Below are positions 7,760-52,528 of a stretch of 64,000 nucleotides of DNA, in pieces. The DNA lies in contig NZ_JAUGQQ010000002.1 in the NCBI RefSeq assembly GCF_030410135.1, forward strand, positions 248,001-312,000. The letters are read 5' to 3'. The notes beneath the pieces were generated by a model that was given only the letters and a program-made list of their open reading frames with translations, made no database searches and was not told the origin of the DNA. A program made the position numbers and the translations under genes. Source of the stretch: Aequorivita aurantiaca. Lineage in GTDB: Bacteria > Bacteroidota > Bacteroidia > Flavobacteriales > Flavobacteriaceae. The first letter of the stretch is position 1. Each line of letters opens with the position of its first letter.

Positions 7760-10429
7760 TTAAAACAGAAGCCCCTGCCCACCTTCATCAACCTTGGAAT
7801 CGCCTTCTTCATTTTTATCTTCGGAATTATCAATTCCATCATCAGAATTTTCAACTTCCTCCTTTAAATCCTCTTCATCCACAACATCCATTTCTTCAGG
7901 CTCGATGGGTGTTGGTGGATCATAAAGTAAAGGCTCCATCGTATTTATTTCCAACACCTTTTCCTTGGTAAGTTGATTACCCATTGCGTTTATTCCTTTT
8001 ACAGAAATGAATTCCTCTAAATTCAACTCCATATTTTCCTCACGCTCCTGCCCTCTTTTTTTGGCGAAAACCACTTCGGCCATTGGACGATAATCGGTAA
8101 ATATTTTTTCCAAATACGAATTTGGATGTTCAGTAATAATCGTTTCCTCGCGCTCGGGATGTTCAATTAAAAAGCGCTTCACATAAAAAAGCTCCTTTTC
8201 CCCTTCCCAATAAATGGCGCTCAACGGTTTTTTTGGATCCCATTTTTCCAGAATAATCATATCGTCATCAAAACGAAGTTGGATATCTGGGATTACAGTT
8301 TTTACAACACCGCTCTGTTTTACAATAAGCAATCTATCCTCTTTTCTGAACTCTCCCAAAAGCTCGCCGCGCTCATCAACATTCAATCGTTGCACGGAAT
8401 CGTCAAACCATATTTTACGAGGCTTCAATGTTGACAGACCTTTCTCTTTTAATTCAATCTTCTTGATAGGATATTTTGAAACAATATTTCCTTTTGAATT
8501 TCTTCCCTTCACCATTTGATCGGCGAAATCCAAATCGAATTTCAACTTTTTGATGCTTCCCGTTTGCCGTAAAAAAATAGTTACAACTTCAGCCTCGCCA
8601 TTCGGATTGGCAGTAAAATATAGCACCTTGGAACCTTTTGTTCCATTGGTCATATCGTATTCCTTATCGCGCGTGGTGCCCGTAACGGCAAAGCGTTTCA
8701 CATAATTTGCGCCGCGCGCACCATCTTTATATATCATATTATAAATGGTGCGTTTATCCTTCTTTTTGAAGACGGCAACGTGGATGATTCCTTTTCCCAC
8801 AAAAGTCTTTTGGTCCACTTTTGTTACCATCATTGTTCCATCTTCCGTGAAAACAATAATGTCGTCAATATCGCTGCAGTCGGTAACGTATTCGTCGCGT
8901 TTCAGGCTTGTTCCCACAAAACCTTCTTCACGGTTTACATACAGTTTTGTGTTTCTGATTACAACCTTCGTCGCTTCAATATCATCAAAGGTTCTGATTT
9001 CGGTTTTACGTTCCTTTCCTGCGCCGTAATCTTTCTTTAATCTTTTGAAATGATCTATCGCATATTCAATTAAATTTGCCAAGTGATGCTTCACTTGGGC
9101 AATACTATCTTCCAGTGCCTCAATTTTTTGCTGGGCTTTATCAATATCGAATTTTGAAATTCTTTTGATTCGAATTTCTGTCAAACGTTCAATATCTTCT
9201 ATCGTTATAGCACGTTTCAAATGCTGGATATGCGGCTGCAAACCTTTATCGATGGCGGTAATTACACCTTCCCAGGTTTCCTCCTCCTCTATATCGCGAT
9301 AAATTCTATTTTCAATGAAAATGCGCTCCAACGAAGCAAAATGCCACTGCTCTTCCAGTTCATCCAATTGGATCTCAAGTTCACTTTTCAGCAATTGAAC
9401 TGTGCGGTCGGTACTTACGCGAAGCATTTCAGAAACACCAACAAACAAAGGTCTGTTATCCTCAATCACACAACCCAAAGGCGAAATTGAAGTCTCGCAA
9501 GCGGTAAATGCATACAGCGCATCAATGGTTTTATCGGGGGAAATTCCGCTTGGCAAATGGATTTGTATTTCCACTTCAGCCGCGGTATTGTCCTCTATTT
9601 TTTTAATCTTGATTTTCCCTTTATCGTTCGCTTTCAGAATAGTATCAATGAGCGAGGAAGTATTGGTCCCAAAGGGAATTTCGGTAATTACAAGCGTGTT
9701 TTTATCGAGTTGGTTGATGCGCGCCCGACTGCGTATTTTCCCACCCCGCAAACCGTCGTTATAATTTGCAACATCCATTATTCCACCTGTTGGGAAATCG
9801 GGATAAATTTGAAACTTTTTGCCCTGCAAATGCTTGATGGAAGCATCTATCAATTCAATAAAATTATGCGGAAGAATTTTGGTGGAAAGCCCAACCGCAA
9901 TACCTTCCCCACCTTGATTTAAAAGCAACGGAAATTTTACCGGAAGATTGATTGGCTCCTTTCTACGTCCGTCATACGAAGCTTGCCACGTGGTAATTTT
10001 CGGATTATAAACCACATCCAAAGCAAATTTTGAAAGCCGCGCCTCAATATATCGCGAAGCTGCGGCGCCGTCGCCGGTCAAAATATTTCCCCAGTTTCCT
10101 TGGGTGTCAATCAATAAATCCTTTTGACCAATCTGCACCATTGCATCGCCAATACTGGCGTCGCCGTGTGGATGGTATTGCATTGTATGGCCGACAATAT
10201 TCGCAACTTTATTGTAACGCCCATCATCCAAATCTTTCATAGACTGCATAATGCGGCGCTGCACAGGCTTAAAACCGTCCTCAATTGCGGGCACGGCGCG
10301 TTCCAGGATTACGTAGCTGGCATAATCCAAAAACCAGTCGCGGTACATTCCGGTGACTTTGGTAATGGTTTCACCAGGGTCTGTGTGGTTTTCAAAAGGT
10401 TCCTCGTTATGTTCTTTTTCTTCGCTCAT
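7760..10429 (-). CDS. parC: DNA topoisomerase IV subunit A
   Basis: Type IIA topoisomerase A subunit (889 residues) that cleaves and rejoins DNA to decatenate daughter chromosomes. QRRIM is at residues 57-61. The catalytic tyrosine is Tyr127 in AASRYIEARLS. GNWGNILTGDGAAASRY is a typical core segment. The C-terminal part has beta-pinwheel-like repeats and ends in an acidic tail of Glu/Asp clusters. The assignment to parC rather than gyrA rests on the partner parE lying upstream on the same strand, and I did not see a canonical GyrA box. In related genomes parE and parC usually adjoin directly; here a four-helix-bundle gene lies between them. Confidence 0.92.
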   Translation of the reverse strand: MSEEKEHNEEPFENHTDPGETITKVTGMYRDWFLDYASYVILERAVPAIEDGFKPVQRRIMQSMKDLDDGRYNKVANIVGHTMQYHPHGDASIGDAMVQIGQKDLLIDTQGNWGNILTGDGAAASRYIEARLSKFALDVVYNPKITTWQASYDGRRKEPINLPVKFPLLLNQGGEGIAVGLSTKILPHNFIELIDASIKHLQGKKFQIYPDFPTGGIMDVANYNDGLRGGKIRSRARINQLDKNTLVITEIPFGTNTSSLIDTILKANDKGKIKIKKIEDNTAAEVEIQIHLPSGISPDKTIDALYAFTACETSISPLGCVIEDNRPLFVGVSEMLRVSTDRTVQLLKSELEIQLDELEEQWHFASLERIFIENRIYRDIEEEETWEGVITAIDKGLQPHIQHLKRAITIEDIERLTEIRIKRISKFDIDKAQQKIEALEDSIAQVKHHLANLIEYAIDHFKRLKKDYGAGKERKTEIRTFDDIEATKVVIRNTKLYVNREEGFVGTSLKRDEYVTDCSDIDDIIVFTEDGTMMVTKVDQKTFVGKGIIHVAVFKKKDKRTIYNMIYKDGARGANYVKRFAVTGTTRDKEYDMTNGTKGSKVLYFTANPNGEAEVVTIFLRQTGSIKKLKFDLDFADQMVKGRNSKGNIVSKYPIKKIELKEKGLSTLKPRKIWFDDSVQRLNVDERGELLGEFRKEDRLLIVKQSGVVKTVIPDIQLRFDDDMIILEKWDPKKPLSAIYWEGEKELFYVKRFLIEHPEREETIITEHPNSYLEKIFTDYRPMAEVVFAKKRGQEREENMELNLEEFISVKGINAMGNQLTKEKVLEINTMEPLLYDPPTPIEPEEMDVVDEEDLKEEVENSDDGIDNSEDKNEEGDSKVDEGGQGLLF

Positions 10430-10451: not shown

Positions 10452-10482
10452 ATGGAATATGGATAGAATGGAATATGGACTA
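10452..10482 (+). repeat. Left arm of inverted repeat around the S23-type gene
   Basis: Begins ATGGAATATGGAT and ends ATGGACTA. The right arm in reverse complement begins and ends with the same two blocks (13 and 8 nt identical), with a few mismatches and a 2-nt length difference between. The arm also holds an internal direct repeat of TGGAATATGGA. The stop codon of the enclosed gene (TAG) is the last triplet of this arm. Confidence 0.7.
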
Positions 10483-10836
10483 ACTTAGTTTATCTATAAA
10501 ACTTCCTATTCTTTTTTGAAGCGATTGTATTTTATTTAATAACTGCTCATAGTCCTCATTAGACAAATATGCAATCCTTTTTGCAATTTCAATTTGTGTT
10601 TCGCACTCGTAAGCAGAACCTAAGCTATTTTCCAAAAAAATCTTAAAGTGTTTATCCGATGATTTTGCAGATCCTTCAGCAATATTTGAAGGAATAGAAA
10701 CTGCGGCTCTATTTAATTGACTTATTAAATTAAATCTTTCTTCGGTCGGAAACTTTTTAGTTAGATTATAAACATCTGTTGAAAACGCCACCCCATCAGT
10801 CCAGATAGAAAGTTTTCTAAAATTATGCCGTGCCAT
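10480..10836 (-). CDS. Four helix bundle protein (23S rRNA intervening-sequence protein / S23 family)
   Basis: A small helical protein of 118 residues. FPTEERFNLISQLNRAAVSI (about 50-69), then PSNIAEGSAK and FLENSLGSAYECETQIEIA, match the S23/IVP signature (FP..E.....Q..RAA.SIP.NIAEG......FL....GS..E..T). Members are encoded in 23S rRNA intervening sequences or stand alone, and are structurally related to the Avd protein of diversity-generating retroelements. No retroelement or template repeat is seen here. Members form pentameric helical bundles and bind nucleic acid in the studied cases. It lies 68 nt after parE and 50 nt before parC on the same strand, so it is probably co-transcribed. The flanking inverted repeats suggest it arrived as a unit. 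Confidence 0.88.
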   Translation of the reverse strand: MARHNFRKLSIWTDGVAFSTDVYNLTKKFPTEERFNLISQLNRAAVSIPSNIAEGSAKSSDKHFKIFLENSLGSAYECETQIEIAKRIAYLSNEDYEQLLNKIQSLQKRIGSFIDKLS

Positions 10837-10864
10837 AAATTTTTTTATTTATCACATTTTCAAA

Positions 10865-10893
10865 TAGTCCATTCTCCATCATCCATATTCCAT
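10865..10893 (-). repeat. Right arm of inverted repeat around the S23-type gene
   Basis: On the minus strand it begins ATGGAATATGGAT and ends ATGGACTA, mirroring the left arm. It ends 28 nt upstream of the start codon of the enclosed gene, so any promoter inside the unit would have to be very compact. Confidence 0.7.
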
Positions 10894-10904
10894 TTATCAC
10901 CAAT

Positions 10905-12755
10905 TTACTCTTCAACCCTATCCAATTCCACCTTCAAATTATCAATAATAAACTCCTGCCTATCCGGCGTGTTTTTCCCCATATAAAACGAAAGCAATTC
11001 CTCAATACTCATAGATTTATCAAGCATCACGGGATCCAAACGAATGTCGTTCCCAATAAAATGCACAAACTCATCCGGCGAAATTTCACCCAAACCTTTA
11101 AAGCGGGTGATTTCCGGTTTTGGTTTTAGTTTTTCTATGGCGTCAATACGCTCCTGTTCGGAATAGCAATAAATGGTTTCCTTTTTATTTCGAACGCGGA
11201 ACAGTGGTGTTTGCAAAATATACAAATGCCCTTCCTTTATCAATTCAGGAAAAAACTGAAGGAAAAAAGTGATGAGCAATAACCGAATGTGCATTCCGTC
11301 AACATCGGCATCCGTGGCAATTACAATATTGTTGTATCGCAAATCTTCCATCGAATCCTCAATATTCAACGCAGCTTGCAGCAGATTGAATTCCTCGTTT
11401 TCGTAAACTATTTTTTTGGTCATTCCGTAGGTATTCAACGGCTTTCCACGGAGTGAAAAAACGGCTTGCGTATTTACATCGCGACTTTTGGTAATACTTC
11501 CGCTCGCGGAATCTCCCTCGGTAATAAACAAAGTAGATTCTAGGTTTCGTTCGTTTTTAATATCCTGCAAATGCACACGGCAATCGCGCAATTTTTTATT
11601 GTGAAGATTTGCCTTTTTTGCTCGGTCCTTTGCGAGTTTTCGAATTCCGCTGAGTTCTTTTCGTTCGCGCTCGGCTTGAACGATTTTACGCTGAATTCCG
11701 TCAGCCGCTTCGGGGTTTTTATGAAGATAATTATCGAGTTGTGTTTTTACGAAATCATTTATAAACGTTCGCACCGTCGGCAAATTGCCACCCATATCGG
11801 TTGAACCGAGTTTGGTTTTTGTCTGGCTTTCAAAAACCGGTTCCATCACTTTTATGCTGATCGCCGAAACAATGGACTTCCGCACATCGCTGGCTTCGTA
11901 ATTTTTATTGTAGAATTCACGAATAGTTTTCACCAAAGCTTCCCGAAAAGCCGCCAAATGCGTTCCACCCTGCGTGGTGTTTTGCCCATTTACAAAACTG
12001 TGATATTCCTCGCTGTACTGCGTTTTGCTATGCGTCATTGCCACCTCAATATCATCGCCTTTTAGGTGAATTATCGGGTACGCGCTGTCTTCTTCGGAAA
12101 TTGTTTCCATCAAAAGATCTTTCAATCCGTTTTCAGAATAGAATTTTTCGCCGTTGAAATCTATCGTCAGTCCCGGATTGAGATAGACGTAGTTTTTCAG
12201 CATTTTCTCTACATATTCATTTCTGAATTTGAAATTCTTGAAAATAACTTCGTCCGGAATGAAAATTACTTTGGTTCCCTTTCGTTTTGTGGTCTCTTCA
12301 ATTGCAACATCATTCGTAAGTTCGCCTTGCGAAAATTCCGCAGCTTTTAATTGGTTATCGCGAACCGATTCCACTTTAAAAAATGACGAAAGTGCATTCA
12401 CAGCTTTCGTTCCCACGCCATTCAAACCAACCGATTTCTTGAAGGCGCGGCTGTCATACTTTCCGCCGGTATTCATTTTGGAAACCACATCAATAACTTT
12501 TCCCAACGGAATTCCGCGGCCGTAATCGCGCACTTTCACTTCTTTGTCTTTTATGCGAACCTCAATAGTTTTGCCGGTTCCCATAACAAATTCATCAATA
12601 CAGTTGTCGATTACTTCCTTCAAAAGAATGTAAATACCATCATCGGGCGAAGATCCGTCGCCAAGTTTCCCAATGTACATTCCCGGACGCATACGGATAT
12701 GCTCCTTCCAATCGAGGGAGCGAATGTTATCTTCGGTATATTGGGTTTCGGACAT
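10905..12755 (-). CDS. parE: DNA topoisomerase IV subunit B
   Basis: ATPase subunit of topoisomerase IV (616 residues from the chosen ATG). [12 protein letters not shown] follows the start. The GHKL N-box [10 protein letters not shown] is at about 47-56. The Toprim motifs are EGDSASGS (about 412-419) and [10 protein letters not shown] (about 480). The reading frame stays open 54 nt further upstream, but [20 protein letters not shown] is the family start, so the ATG at 12755 is preferred. The gene reads towards parC and is divergent from the tandem repeat array and cbpA. Confidence 0.94.
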
Positions 12756-12944
12756 AAGATTTGGTGTAGGGTTGCTAATATAAAAATACGCGAGCACTTG
12801 TGAAACCAATGCCTCGGAAAGTAATTAACAATAAAATGATGGGGATTGTTAGTAATTATTCAATTGATGAATTGCAAAGGACATTTAGCAAGCTTTTTAC
12901 GAAAAATCATCTGTATCAGTCAAAATTTATATTTCATCATTACC

Positions 12945-13217
12945 CATTGCAACTTCCGCACGAAGCATTTCACTTCCCGCACAAAGCATTTCATTTCCCG
13001 CACGAAGCATTTCACTTCCCGCACGAAACATTTCACTTCCCGCACGAAGCATTTCACTTCCCGTACGAAGCATTTCACTTCCCGCACGAAGCATTTCACT
13101 TCGCGAACGAAGCATTTCATTTCCAGCACGAAGCATTTCACTTCCCGCACGGGGCATTGCAACTCCCGCACGAGGCATTTCATCTCCCGCACGAGGCATT
13201 TCACCTCTCGAGTAAAC
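12945..13217. repeat. Tandem array of a 21-bp unit, 12 full copies plus a decayed copy
   Basis: Twelve contiguous 21-bp units from 12945 to 13196, each starting CATT and mostly CATTTCACTTCCCGC, followed by a partial copy to about 13210. Units differ at one to four positions; units 1 and 11 share a CATTGCAACT variant. Because 21 is a multiple of three and the unit lacks stops, several frames on both strands are open across it and give artificial heptad repeats such as HFPHEAF (plus) or EMLRAGS and EVKCFVR (minus). Differences between units are mostly non-synonymous in these frames, so no frame shows clear coding constraint. The intergenic stretch 12756-13353 holds nothing else that I recognise as a gene. 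Confidence 0.9.
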
Positions 13218-51076: not shown

Positions 51077-52474
51077 ATGAAAACCGAAATACAATATAGA
51101 ATAGAAAAAGACACTATGGGCGAGGTGAAAGTGCCTGCCGATAAACTTTGGGGCGCACAAACTGAGCGTTCTTTTGAAAATTTTAAAATTGGCCCTCGCG
51201 CCTCTATGCCCTTGGAAATTATTTACGGCTTCGCATATCTTAAAAAAGCCGCGGCCTTTACCAATTGTGAATTAGGCGTTCTTACCGAAGAAAAAAGGGA
51301 TTTTATTGCGAAAGTGTGCGATGAGATTTTGGAAGGAAAACACGATGACCAATTTCCATTGGTAATTTGGCAAACCGGAAGCGGCACCCAAAGCAATATG
51401 AACGTGAATGAAGTTATTGCAAACCGCGCGCATCAACTTGCCGGAAAAAGCATTGGCGAGGGTGAGAAAACGCTTCAGCCGAATGATGATGTAAACAAAA
51501 GCCAATCCTCAAACGATACCTTTCCAACGGGAATGCACATTGCGGCTTATAAAAAATTAATTGAAACTACGCTTCCCGGGGTGGAGCAACTTCAAAAAAC
51601 ATTTACCAAAAAAGCGGACGAATACAAAAATGTGGTGAAAATAGGTCGCACACATTTTATGGACGCCACTCCCCTAACCCTTGGACAAGAATTCAGCGGT
51701 TATGCCGCACAACTTGAATACGGGATTAAAGCGTTGAAAAATACACTACCGCATTTGGCCGAGCTTGCTTTAGGCGGAACTGCAGTGGGAACGGGATTGA
51801 ACGCTCCAAAAGGCTACGATGTAAAAGTTGCGGAATACATTTCGAAGTTTACCGGTTTGCCTTTCGTAACCGCAAACAATAAATTTGAAGCACTTGCCGC
51901 ACACGATGCTTTCGTTGAAAGCCACGGCGCTTTAAAACAATTGGCGGTTTCATTGAATAAAATTGCGAACGATGTACGAATGCTCGCCAGCGGACCCAGA
52001 AGCGGAATTGGAGAAATCAACATACCTGCTAATGAGCCAGGTTCTTCCATTATGCCCGGAAAAGTAAACCCAACCCAATGTGAAGCATTGACGATGGTTT
52101 GTGCGCAGGTTATTGGCAACGATATGGCAATTGCCGTCGGCGGAATGCAGGGCCAATTTGAATTAAACGTTTTTAAACCCGTAATGGCGGCCAACTTTTT
52201 GCAATCGGCGCAATTGATTGGTGATGCCTGTGTTTCTTTTGACGAACATTGCGCGAAGGGAATTGAACCGAATTATGAAGTAATTAAAAAGCAATTGAAT
52301 AACAGTTTGATGTTGGTAACGGCCCTAAACACCAAAATTGGATATTACAAAGCCGCTGAAATAGCAAACACAGCCCATAAGAACGGAACTACTTTAAAAG
52401 AGGAAGCTGTAAATTTAGGCTATACCACTGCGGAAGAATTTGATGCGTGGGTGAAACCTGAAGATATGATATAA
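51077..52474 (+). CDS. fumC: Class II fumarate hydratase
   Basis: Fumarate to L-malate in the TCA cycle; iron-independent class. 465 residues. [13 protein letters not shown] (about 138), [15 protein letters not shown] (about 98) and the superfamily signature [15 protein letters not shown] (about 318-332) are all present; the mobile-loop serine is in GSSIMPGK. Aspartase is a close relative, but the overall pattern fits fumarase. Ends with a strong terminator hairpin. Confidence 0.94.
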
Positions 52475-52480
52475 GAAATT

Positions 52481-52508
52481 TTCGACTTACGAGTTTCGAT
52501 TTACGATT
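52481..52508. repeat. Two degenerate 14-nt direct repeats after fumC
   Basis: TTCGACTTACGAGT (52481-52494) and TTCGATTTACGATT (52495-52508), differing at two positions. They sit between the fumC stop and the terminator hairpin. Low complexity; may be a remnant of a longer intergenic repeat. Confidence 0.45.
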
Positions 52509-52528
52509 CTCAGTTTTATAATTTTTTG

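Follow-up and report, generated by a model that had tools for sequence, protein, structure and literature searches.

The window analysed here, a stretch of 64,000 nucleotides of the Aequorivita aurantiaca genome, contains the topoisomerase IV genes parE and parC, and the junction between them is filled by a small gene of the S23 family. The three genes are co-directional, all on the minus strand, and the following features were assigned:

7760..10429, minus strand: parC, the downstream flank (assigned by ORF and profile)
10452..10893, minus strand: the whole unit of 442 bp, in the orientation of the parE-parC operon
10452..10482, no strand assigned: downstream arm, inverted relative to the upstream arm, with four ATGGANN heptads plus 2 nt, overlapping the S23 stop
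10480..10836, minus strand: S23 / four-helix-bundle gene, 118 aa (PF05635, TIGR02436)
10865..10893, no strand assigned: upstream arm, located between the parE stop and the S23 start, with four tandem ATGGANN heptads running toward the gene
10905..12809, minus strand: parE, the upstream flank (ORF as listed, from TTG)

The 118-aa ORF matches the Pfam profile PF05635 with 125.9 bits against a curated cut-off of 33.8 (E 9.7e-37). An AlphaFold2 model of the S23 protein has four helices (pLDDT 97.2), and its top matches in Foldseek are the crystal entries 2gsc, with a TM score of up to 0.95-0.96, and 2rld, followed more weakly by the Avd structures 4dwl and 8ub7. By sequence, 2gsc (XCC0516) is matched with E 3.1e-21 and 2rld (BT_0352) with E 1e-5; both crystal entries contain five chains. 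In Pfam and NCBIfam searches no transposase or recombinase domain was found in the unit, S23 being the sole ORF of at least 80 aa wholly inside it, and a search with defence-system profiles gave no match. Rfam returned no match in the 64-kb window, and the unit does not lie inside 23S rRNA.

The initial annotation had described inverted repeats around this S23 gene, with matching outer and inner blocks and the stop codon inside one arm. All of this is borne out: the outer 13-nt blocks (10452-10464 and 10881-10893) are 100% complementary, the inner blocks are ATGGACTA and TAGTCCAT (10475-10482 and 10865-10872, respectively), and the TAG stop of S23 falls within the downstream arm. An S23 ORF between terminal inverted repeats, a feature of 23S rRNA intervening sequences, is present at this locus. 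The description of the arms as imperfect repeats of 29-31 nt holds as far as their inversion is concerned, but they are actually tandem arrays of ATGGANN heptads with about four units per arm. In the orientation of the gene, the upstream arm reads ATGGAAT ATGGATG ATGGAGA ATGGACT A, and the downstream arm, after reverse complementation, reads ATGGAAT ATGGATA GA ATGGAAT ATGGACT A. When the 49 genes of the window were scored in the same way, the inverted score between the upstream and downstream sides was highest for S23 (19), and only one of the other 48 genes was above 14 (score 15). The period-7 signal alone does not single out the S23 arms: a lenient scan of the window gave eight segments, two of which are the S23 arms, and a strict scan gave 501-553 as its sole segment.

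Solo heptad-like arrays without S23 were also observed in the window, at 52474-52518 and 501-555; one of them lies after a gene stop beside a terminator-like palindrome (CGACTTACGAGTTTCGATTTACGATTC), and the other repeats ACTTTTAACTTTTT. Furthermore, about 12 tandem copies of a 21-nt unit (3 x 7) are located at 12952-13204, where they separate the 5' side of parE from a dnaJ-like gene, and are crossed by open frames on both strands. In the whole genome, ATGGANNATGGANNATGGA was matched 28 times with up to two mismatches, as compared to three times for the reversed control, and several of these matches are the unit's own arms. No S23 gene was found near four other matches that were inspected (L332, L336, L338 and L339); two of the four are solo arrays (C6:28577-28616 and C33:308963-309002), and L338 falls within a coding ORF.

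The expectation that S23 copies would be numerous proved correct. PF05635 has 11 matches at E<=1e-6 in the A. aurantiaca genome and was found in all 27 genomes of the genus searched, with 4 to 21 matches per genome, as well as in 221 of 296 Bacteroidota genomes sampled phylum-wide; none of 14 control genomes was matched, and the phage collection searched gave no match to the S23 profile. From the relatives (the genus, plus some of the family and order), 172 matches were reduced to 157 distinct S23 genes with flanks after duplicates and short flanks had been left out, and clustering by outer flanks yielded 44 locations. Five loci without an intact S23 frame (L030, L114, L144, L160 and L169) were left out, as were three flankless loci of 111. 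The plasmid set comprises 15 of 21 matching records, 14 of them cyanobacterial and one from Gemmatimonadota, and the named-genome set the best 79 loci by score, 76 of which were usable. These best 79 are mostly from Bacteroidota; other titles among them include Chloroflexi, Acidobacteria, Nitrospirales, Verrucomicrobiia, Patescibacteria and a Methanophagales archaeon, many of the records being MAGs, of which single titles may be misbinned. The loci from relatives, those from plasmids (mostly cyanobacterial) and those from named genomes (chiefly Bacteroidota, with some other phyla) together make up a wider set of 135 loci, which are best-scoring matches and not a random sample, and which collapse to 104 flank clusters. 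Because many loci share flanks, some junctions being reused repeatedly, headline counts are given per flank cluster. A held-out set of 29 loci, collapsing to 18 flank clusters, was obtained from a phylum-wide draw after the method had been fixed, and 32 partly redundant S23 loci from viral contigs were kept out of the 135.

Several individual copies deserve description. Within the same genome, the ATP synthase alpha and gamma genes (neighbours identified by PF00006 and PF00231) enclose an S23 unit whose arms are built from AGTTATG (L007, C11:413457-416753). At another S23 gene (L001, C44) the word occurs in three arrays, and two of these can fold into a hairpin of their own upstream of the gene; the relatives of this copy at the same place (L074 and L075) have a simple inverted pair. 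CRISPR operons on cyanobacterial plasmids hold S23 units in the arrangements cas10-S23-cmr3 and cas6-S23-cas4 (L205, L206 and L209), the arrays of L209 being direct and not inverted. A few junctions, e.g. in a thiolase/acyl-CoA dehydrogenase-like operon whose genes were named from reading frames, look like preferred sites, in that the S23 units found there in many genomes differ in both protein and word.

The arms of each S23 gene were scored against each other and against those of mismatched loci. At the 44 locations, represented by one gene each, the median inverted score of own arms was 19, compared with 10 for mismatched loci and 9 for a control region 300 nt further out. The own partner arm ranked first at 24 and among the top three at 37 of the 44 locations, and none of 10,000 permutations reached the observed sum. 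The plasmid loci (n=15), with words such as TAGGGAG, CAGGGAA and GTCAGGA, gave an own-arm mean of 22.9 versus 11.1 for mismatched arms, and the own partner came first in 9/15; for the 76 named-genome loci of the best 79, the own-arm median was 19 versus 9, and 54 loci were above 95% of the null. In the 104 flank clusters the inverted score exceeds 95% of the null in 85, the direct score only in 9 and neither in 10 (114, 10 and 11, respectively, for the 135 uncollapsed loci), with the own partner in the top three in 77 clusters and again 0/10,000 permutations. The 18 held-out clusters divide into 12 inverted, two direct only and four neither (uncollapsed, 20 of 29 loci are above 95% of the null), with the own partner in the top three in 14 and 0/10,000 permutations, and 24 of the 32 viral-contig loci are above 95% of the null. 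A direct own-arm score above 99% of the null was seen in 24 of the 135 loci. A stricter heptad-profile score separates fewer loci (129 of 270 above 95% of the null). Paired arms at S23 genes are the rule, not an accident.

The arms are built from units of about seven nucleotides. Their autocorrelation peaks at lag 7 (0.42 upstream and 0.45 downstream, versus 0.254 in the outer flank) with harmonics at 14, 21 and 28, and the best lag is 7 at 34 and 8 at seven of the 44 locations. Tandem 7-nt units in intergenic DNA, as in STRR and heptameric SSR arrays, are present at S23 loci. The median matched arm measures 35 nt, i.e. five heptads, and in 80 of 89 untied clusters (103 of 113 loci uncollapsed) the G-rich arm strand is directed at the gene; arms scoring below 15 were left out of these polarity counts and of the mismatch counts given below (20/134 uncollapsed, 14/104 clusters). 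The words themselves differ: a clear heptad profile was obtained for 76 non-viral locations, and these contain 63 distinct heptamers when rotations are merged, with 11 words recurring two or three times. A division of the heptad into a 4-nt core and a 3-nt spacer is not claimed, its value being 0.201 versus 0.173 for permuted columns. The idea that several copies would carry the same arms therefore did not hold, since the other copies inspected mostly have their own heptamer; what recurs is the anatomy. No family-wide terminal repeat sequence was found among the copies, the arms of which vary from one to the next.

If heptamer arrays were generic slippage-prone repeats of intergenic DNA, S23 might merely reside in array-rich spacers. 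Solo arrays without S23 do occur near parE or parC in several relatives, elsewhere in the genome and in the window, and heptamers are over-represented in bacteria according to the available excerpt of PMC4692102. However, matched inverted arms in 85 of 104 S23 clusters, set against one of 48 other window genes above 14, the word common to both sides, the convergent polarity and the coupling to the S23 sequence described below have already weakened this explanation, which we regard as very improbable.

The history of the junction was examined in relatives. Among 30 parE-parC junctions, from A. aurantiaca, 22 further genomes of the genus and seven of the order, the S23 profile matched only that of A. 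aurantiaca. In the 22 relatives this place is taken instead by small ORFs of other kinds, by short spacers that contain palindromes and, in many cases, by solo arrays of short repeats; under a strict pattern, a CAGT array follows parE in 8/22 of these loci. These observations contradict a fixed operon gene, the case that the initial annotation had named as speaking against a mobile unit, and with it the strong form of the view that S23 is an ordinary operon member with a housekeeping role for topoisomerase IV. Purifying selection and the operon orientation would suit such a role, but S23 is missing from parE-parC in 22 of 23 genomes of the genus and in 7/7 further genomes of the order, and it occurs at many unrelated junctions (44 location clusters), so that we find this view scarcely credible.

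Filled and empty sites were also found in plasmids. Two plasmids of Nostoc sp. ATCC 53789 share a gene cluster in which the units occupy adjacent junctions, each plasmid thus providing the empty site of the other. Nostoc C052 and N. edaphicum have a unit after a TraM-like gene, whereas Nostoc C057 has none there; the same site in pNsp_c of ATCC 53789 (L220, 785-1075) has paired convergent heptad arrays without an annotated S23 gene between them. Likewise, the unit between cas10 and cmr3 of Picosynechococcus PCC 7003 is missing in PCC 7002. Anabaena sp. 90 carries a unit between cas6 and cas4, and a Dolichospermum plasmid with 99% identical flanks has, as judged by eye, a different palindromic insert there (L216, 800-1090, GTAGGTTGGGTTG...), which indicates that such junctions attract several kinds of insert. 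A possible target-site duplication of 3-5 nt (CTA/TTCTA) was seen at one of four filled/empty plasmid junctions and is not clear at the other three.

The unit is therefore present or absent as a whole, at parE-parC in one of 23 genomes of the genus and in the filled/empty plasmid pairs. This gain and loss supports one part of the earlier proposal of a minimal mobile unit moved in trans; the other part, an enzyme acting in trans, gained no support from searches for the reverse transcriptase and Y1 transposase families. Neither PF00078 (reverse transcriptase) nor PF01797 (Y1 transposase) has a match in the A. aurantiaca genome, and across the genus PF00078 was detected in 8/27 and PF01797 in 18/27 genomes, compared with S23 in 27/27. 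Both enzymes were consequently rejected as obligate mobilisers. In favour of a passive cargo, moved by an enzyme of the reverse transcriptase or Y1/RAYT-type transposase kind, are the short length, the inverted ends and the empty sites, as well as the structural relation of S23 to Avd, which partners the reverse transcriptases of DGRs. Yet the copy at this junction, not found in 22 relatives, resides in a genome lacking both matches, and purifying selection at fixed places is unexpected of passive cargo. We therefore consider a passive unit highly improbable, although a mobiliser may since have been lost or may belong to another family.

Between co-directional genes, the S23 gene lies in sense orientation at 98 of 120 loci (38/44 and 60/76, the 76 being uncollapsed by flank and neighbours being assigned by a simple ORF rule), and in antisense orientation at 1/120. 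This bias could reflect a role at the RNA level, or merely a need for read-through transcription. It is one of the observations that would fit an intervening sequence in mRNA, in which the arms would pair in the operon transcript and leave the S23 ORF as the loop, RNase III would cut the stem, the cut would free the S23 piece and part parE from parC mRNA, and S23 would act as a companion resembling an RNA chaperone or maturase. A stem of this kind might also shift the parE:parC ratio, as the initial annotation proposed. The RNA of the window unit indeed folds better than 100 shuffles (z -4.75), and in the accessible text of PMC4990558 the Coxiella 23S rRNA offers an analogue with an S23 ORF loop, repeats cut by RNase III and heptamers. 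A good fold is, however, expected of any inverted repeat, and the direct-only arms of 9/104 clusters cannot pair. Moreover, mismatches between arms are G.U in 109 and A.C in 132 cases in 90 clusters (held-out, 26 vs 29; uncollapsed, 142 vs 164). Selection for an RNA stem was rejected on account of this missing G.U excess, which together with the existence of direct arms argues that the word is conserved and not RNA pairing. On balance, we think an intervening sequence of this kind rather unlikely.

The arms and the protein change together. For pairs of copies at the same location, grouped into five classes of increasing protein identity (<0.4 to >=0.9), the score between own arms minus that between arms of different copies is +10.5, +8.2, +4.5, -0.2 and -0.5 (24, 99, 124, 108 and 82 pairs, respectively, from clusters of three or more). 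Where proteins at one location are at least 80% identical, the arms are common to both copies and the difference is about 0 (190 pairs), whereas below 60% identity (123 pairs) the own arms match each other and mostly not those of the other copy (+8 to +10). At one location the words GTTAATT, GTTAAGC and GTTATTG go with proteins that are 53-61% identical between the groups. Among copies with dissimilar flanks, arm similarity likewise tracks protein similarity (920 pairs; 10.42 vs 9.26; 0/2,000), with values of 8.8-9.0 below an identity of 0.4, 10.1 at 0.5-0.6 and 13.4 at 0.6-0.8. In orthologous copies the arm length changes, as judged by eye, by whole heptads. The coupled change looks like partly a replacement of elements at the same junction and partly joint drift. 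S23 has a median dN/dS of 0.09 at fixed places in 98 non-independent pairs, one of them above 0.7; the pairs within clusters behind the own-minus-cross values are not mutually independent either. The suggestion of a protein acting on its own repeats fits this co-divergence, and the first interpretation as a whole is partly supported.

Our preferred reading is that the parE-parC unit belongs to a widespread class of elements of about 0.45 kb, in which an S23 four-helix-bundle gene is bracketed by convergent tandem arrays of a word of about 7 nt that is largely private to the copy. Such elements sit in sense at operon junctions and are gained or lost whole, with protein and arrays diverging as a matched set. 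S23 would bind its own heptad arrays as nucleic acid, contacting several heptads per oligomer, and this self-recognition would keep protein and word matched and may underlie the maintenance of the element and its occasional movement via host machinery. We judge this full reading, with all its parts together, somewhat better than evenly probable. The anatomy, its association with S23, the differing words, the polarity, the presence/absence pattern, the sense bias, the coupled divergence and the purifying selection are all observed; recognition by S23 of its own heptad word is the most parsimonious inference. The five-chain crystals and the five-heptad median arm make a putative contact of one heptad per subunit an attractive idea, and the Xanthomonas S23 protein is stated to be a pentamer in the available portion of PMC4990558. 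We counted against the preferred reading that no catalytic domain was found in S23, that own arms compared in direct orientation also score somewhat high (mean 14.9, median 11), that 10 of the 104 clusters are without matched arms at the 95% threshold, and that solo arrays without S23 exist. Counted in the same way were the S23 copies interrupted by stop codons, at least 22 by hand count among the matches listed, as the protein thus appears not to be indispensable everywhere.

In the open-access literature searched, we found no description of the general pattern of S23 with paired heptamer arrays, and as heptamers beside an S23 gene only the Coxiella intervening sequence (PMC4990558, as far as its text was available). 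The intergenic heptamers, for their part, are presented in the excerpt of PMC4692102 as over-represented and without detailed literature. For S23 itself, a structure (2gsc) was released in 2006, still with no function assigned to it. Our finding joins three puzzles, i.e. the function of S23, the 23S rRNA intervening sequences and the intergenic heptamers. The anatomy predicts the protein's own heptad array as the putative substrate of S23, and it shows that small elements at operon junctions form a large class that has been described but little, with members in CRISPR (L205, L206 and L209), ATP synthase (L007) and topoisomerase IV operons. A wider joint claim can be made tentatively, and we would give it somewhat less than even credence: that these are minimal elements occurring across phyla, composed of a pentameric S23 and of paired arrays whose private 7-nt word is read by that protein and no other; that through co-divergence one genome may hold, at its operon junctions, as many as about twenty protein/word pairs, each orthogonal to the rest; that 23S rRNA intervening sequences, STRRs and the Xanthomonas/Nostoc heptamers may be members or relics of the same class; and that S23/Avd proteins may be readers of short repeated words.

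Among known systems, Avd (4dwl and 8ub7) has the same four-helix-bundle fold (TM 0.77-0.81), but with a Foldseek E of only 0.05-0.12, about 9% identity to S23 and weak matches of the Avd profile below its cut-off. Unlike the situation of Avd in DGRs, the A. aurantiaca genome is without a reverse transcriptase match (PF00078, 0). XCC0516 (2gsc) and BT_0352 (2rld) belong to the same family and fold as solved S23 proteins without known function, and XCC0516 is from Xanthomonas campestris, one of the species with GGGAATC arrays. STRR heptamers occur in tRNA-Leu introns and in RNase P RNA. The cyanobacterial STRRs, tandem heptamers (PMC2670836), and the arrays of GGGAATC or GGGGA(C/T)T known from Xanthomonas and Nostoc (PMC4692102) resemble the S23 arms in having tandem units of 7 nt that are mostly intergenic and capable of forming hairpins. 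In Xanthomonas, 70-75 convergent pairs of heptamer arrays show the polarity that we found at S23 arms (PMC4692102). The accessible parts of both sources describe these arrays without S23 or another partner (PMC2670836, PMC4692102), whereas the arrays reported here bracket S23 and vary from copy to copy.

The closest known system is the intervening sequence of the Coxiella burnetii 23S rRNA. According to the available text of PMC4990558, its S23 ORF lies in a loop between inverted repeats that are cut by RNase III, with tandem heptamers beginning at the 5' cleavage site, and both the function and the origin of intervening sequences are called unclear, although these were discovered more than 25 years earlier. 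The parE-parC unit has in common with it the S23 ORF between inverted repeats, a length of about 430 nt and heptamers upstream of the ORF (PMC4990558, same portion). It differs in being located in a protein operon and not in 23S rRNA, and Rfam detected rRNA around none of 20 S23 loci tested. Furthermore, S23 at the loci studied evolves under strong purifying selection, in contrast to the Coxiella S23, which that text calls expendable (PMC4990558). On the best reading, the S23/array element is self-contained and kin to the 23S rRNA intervening sequence.
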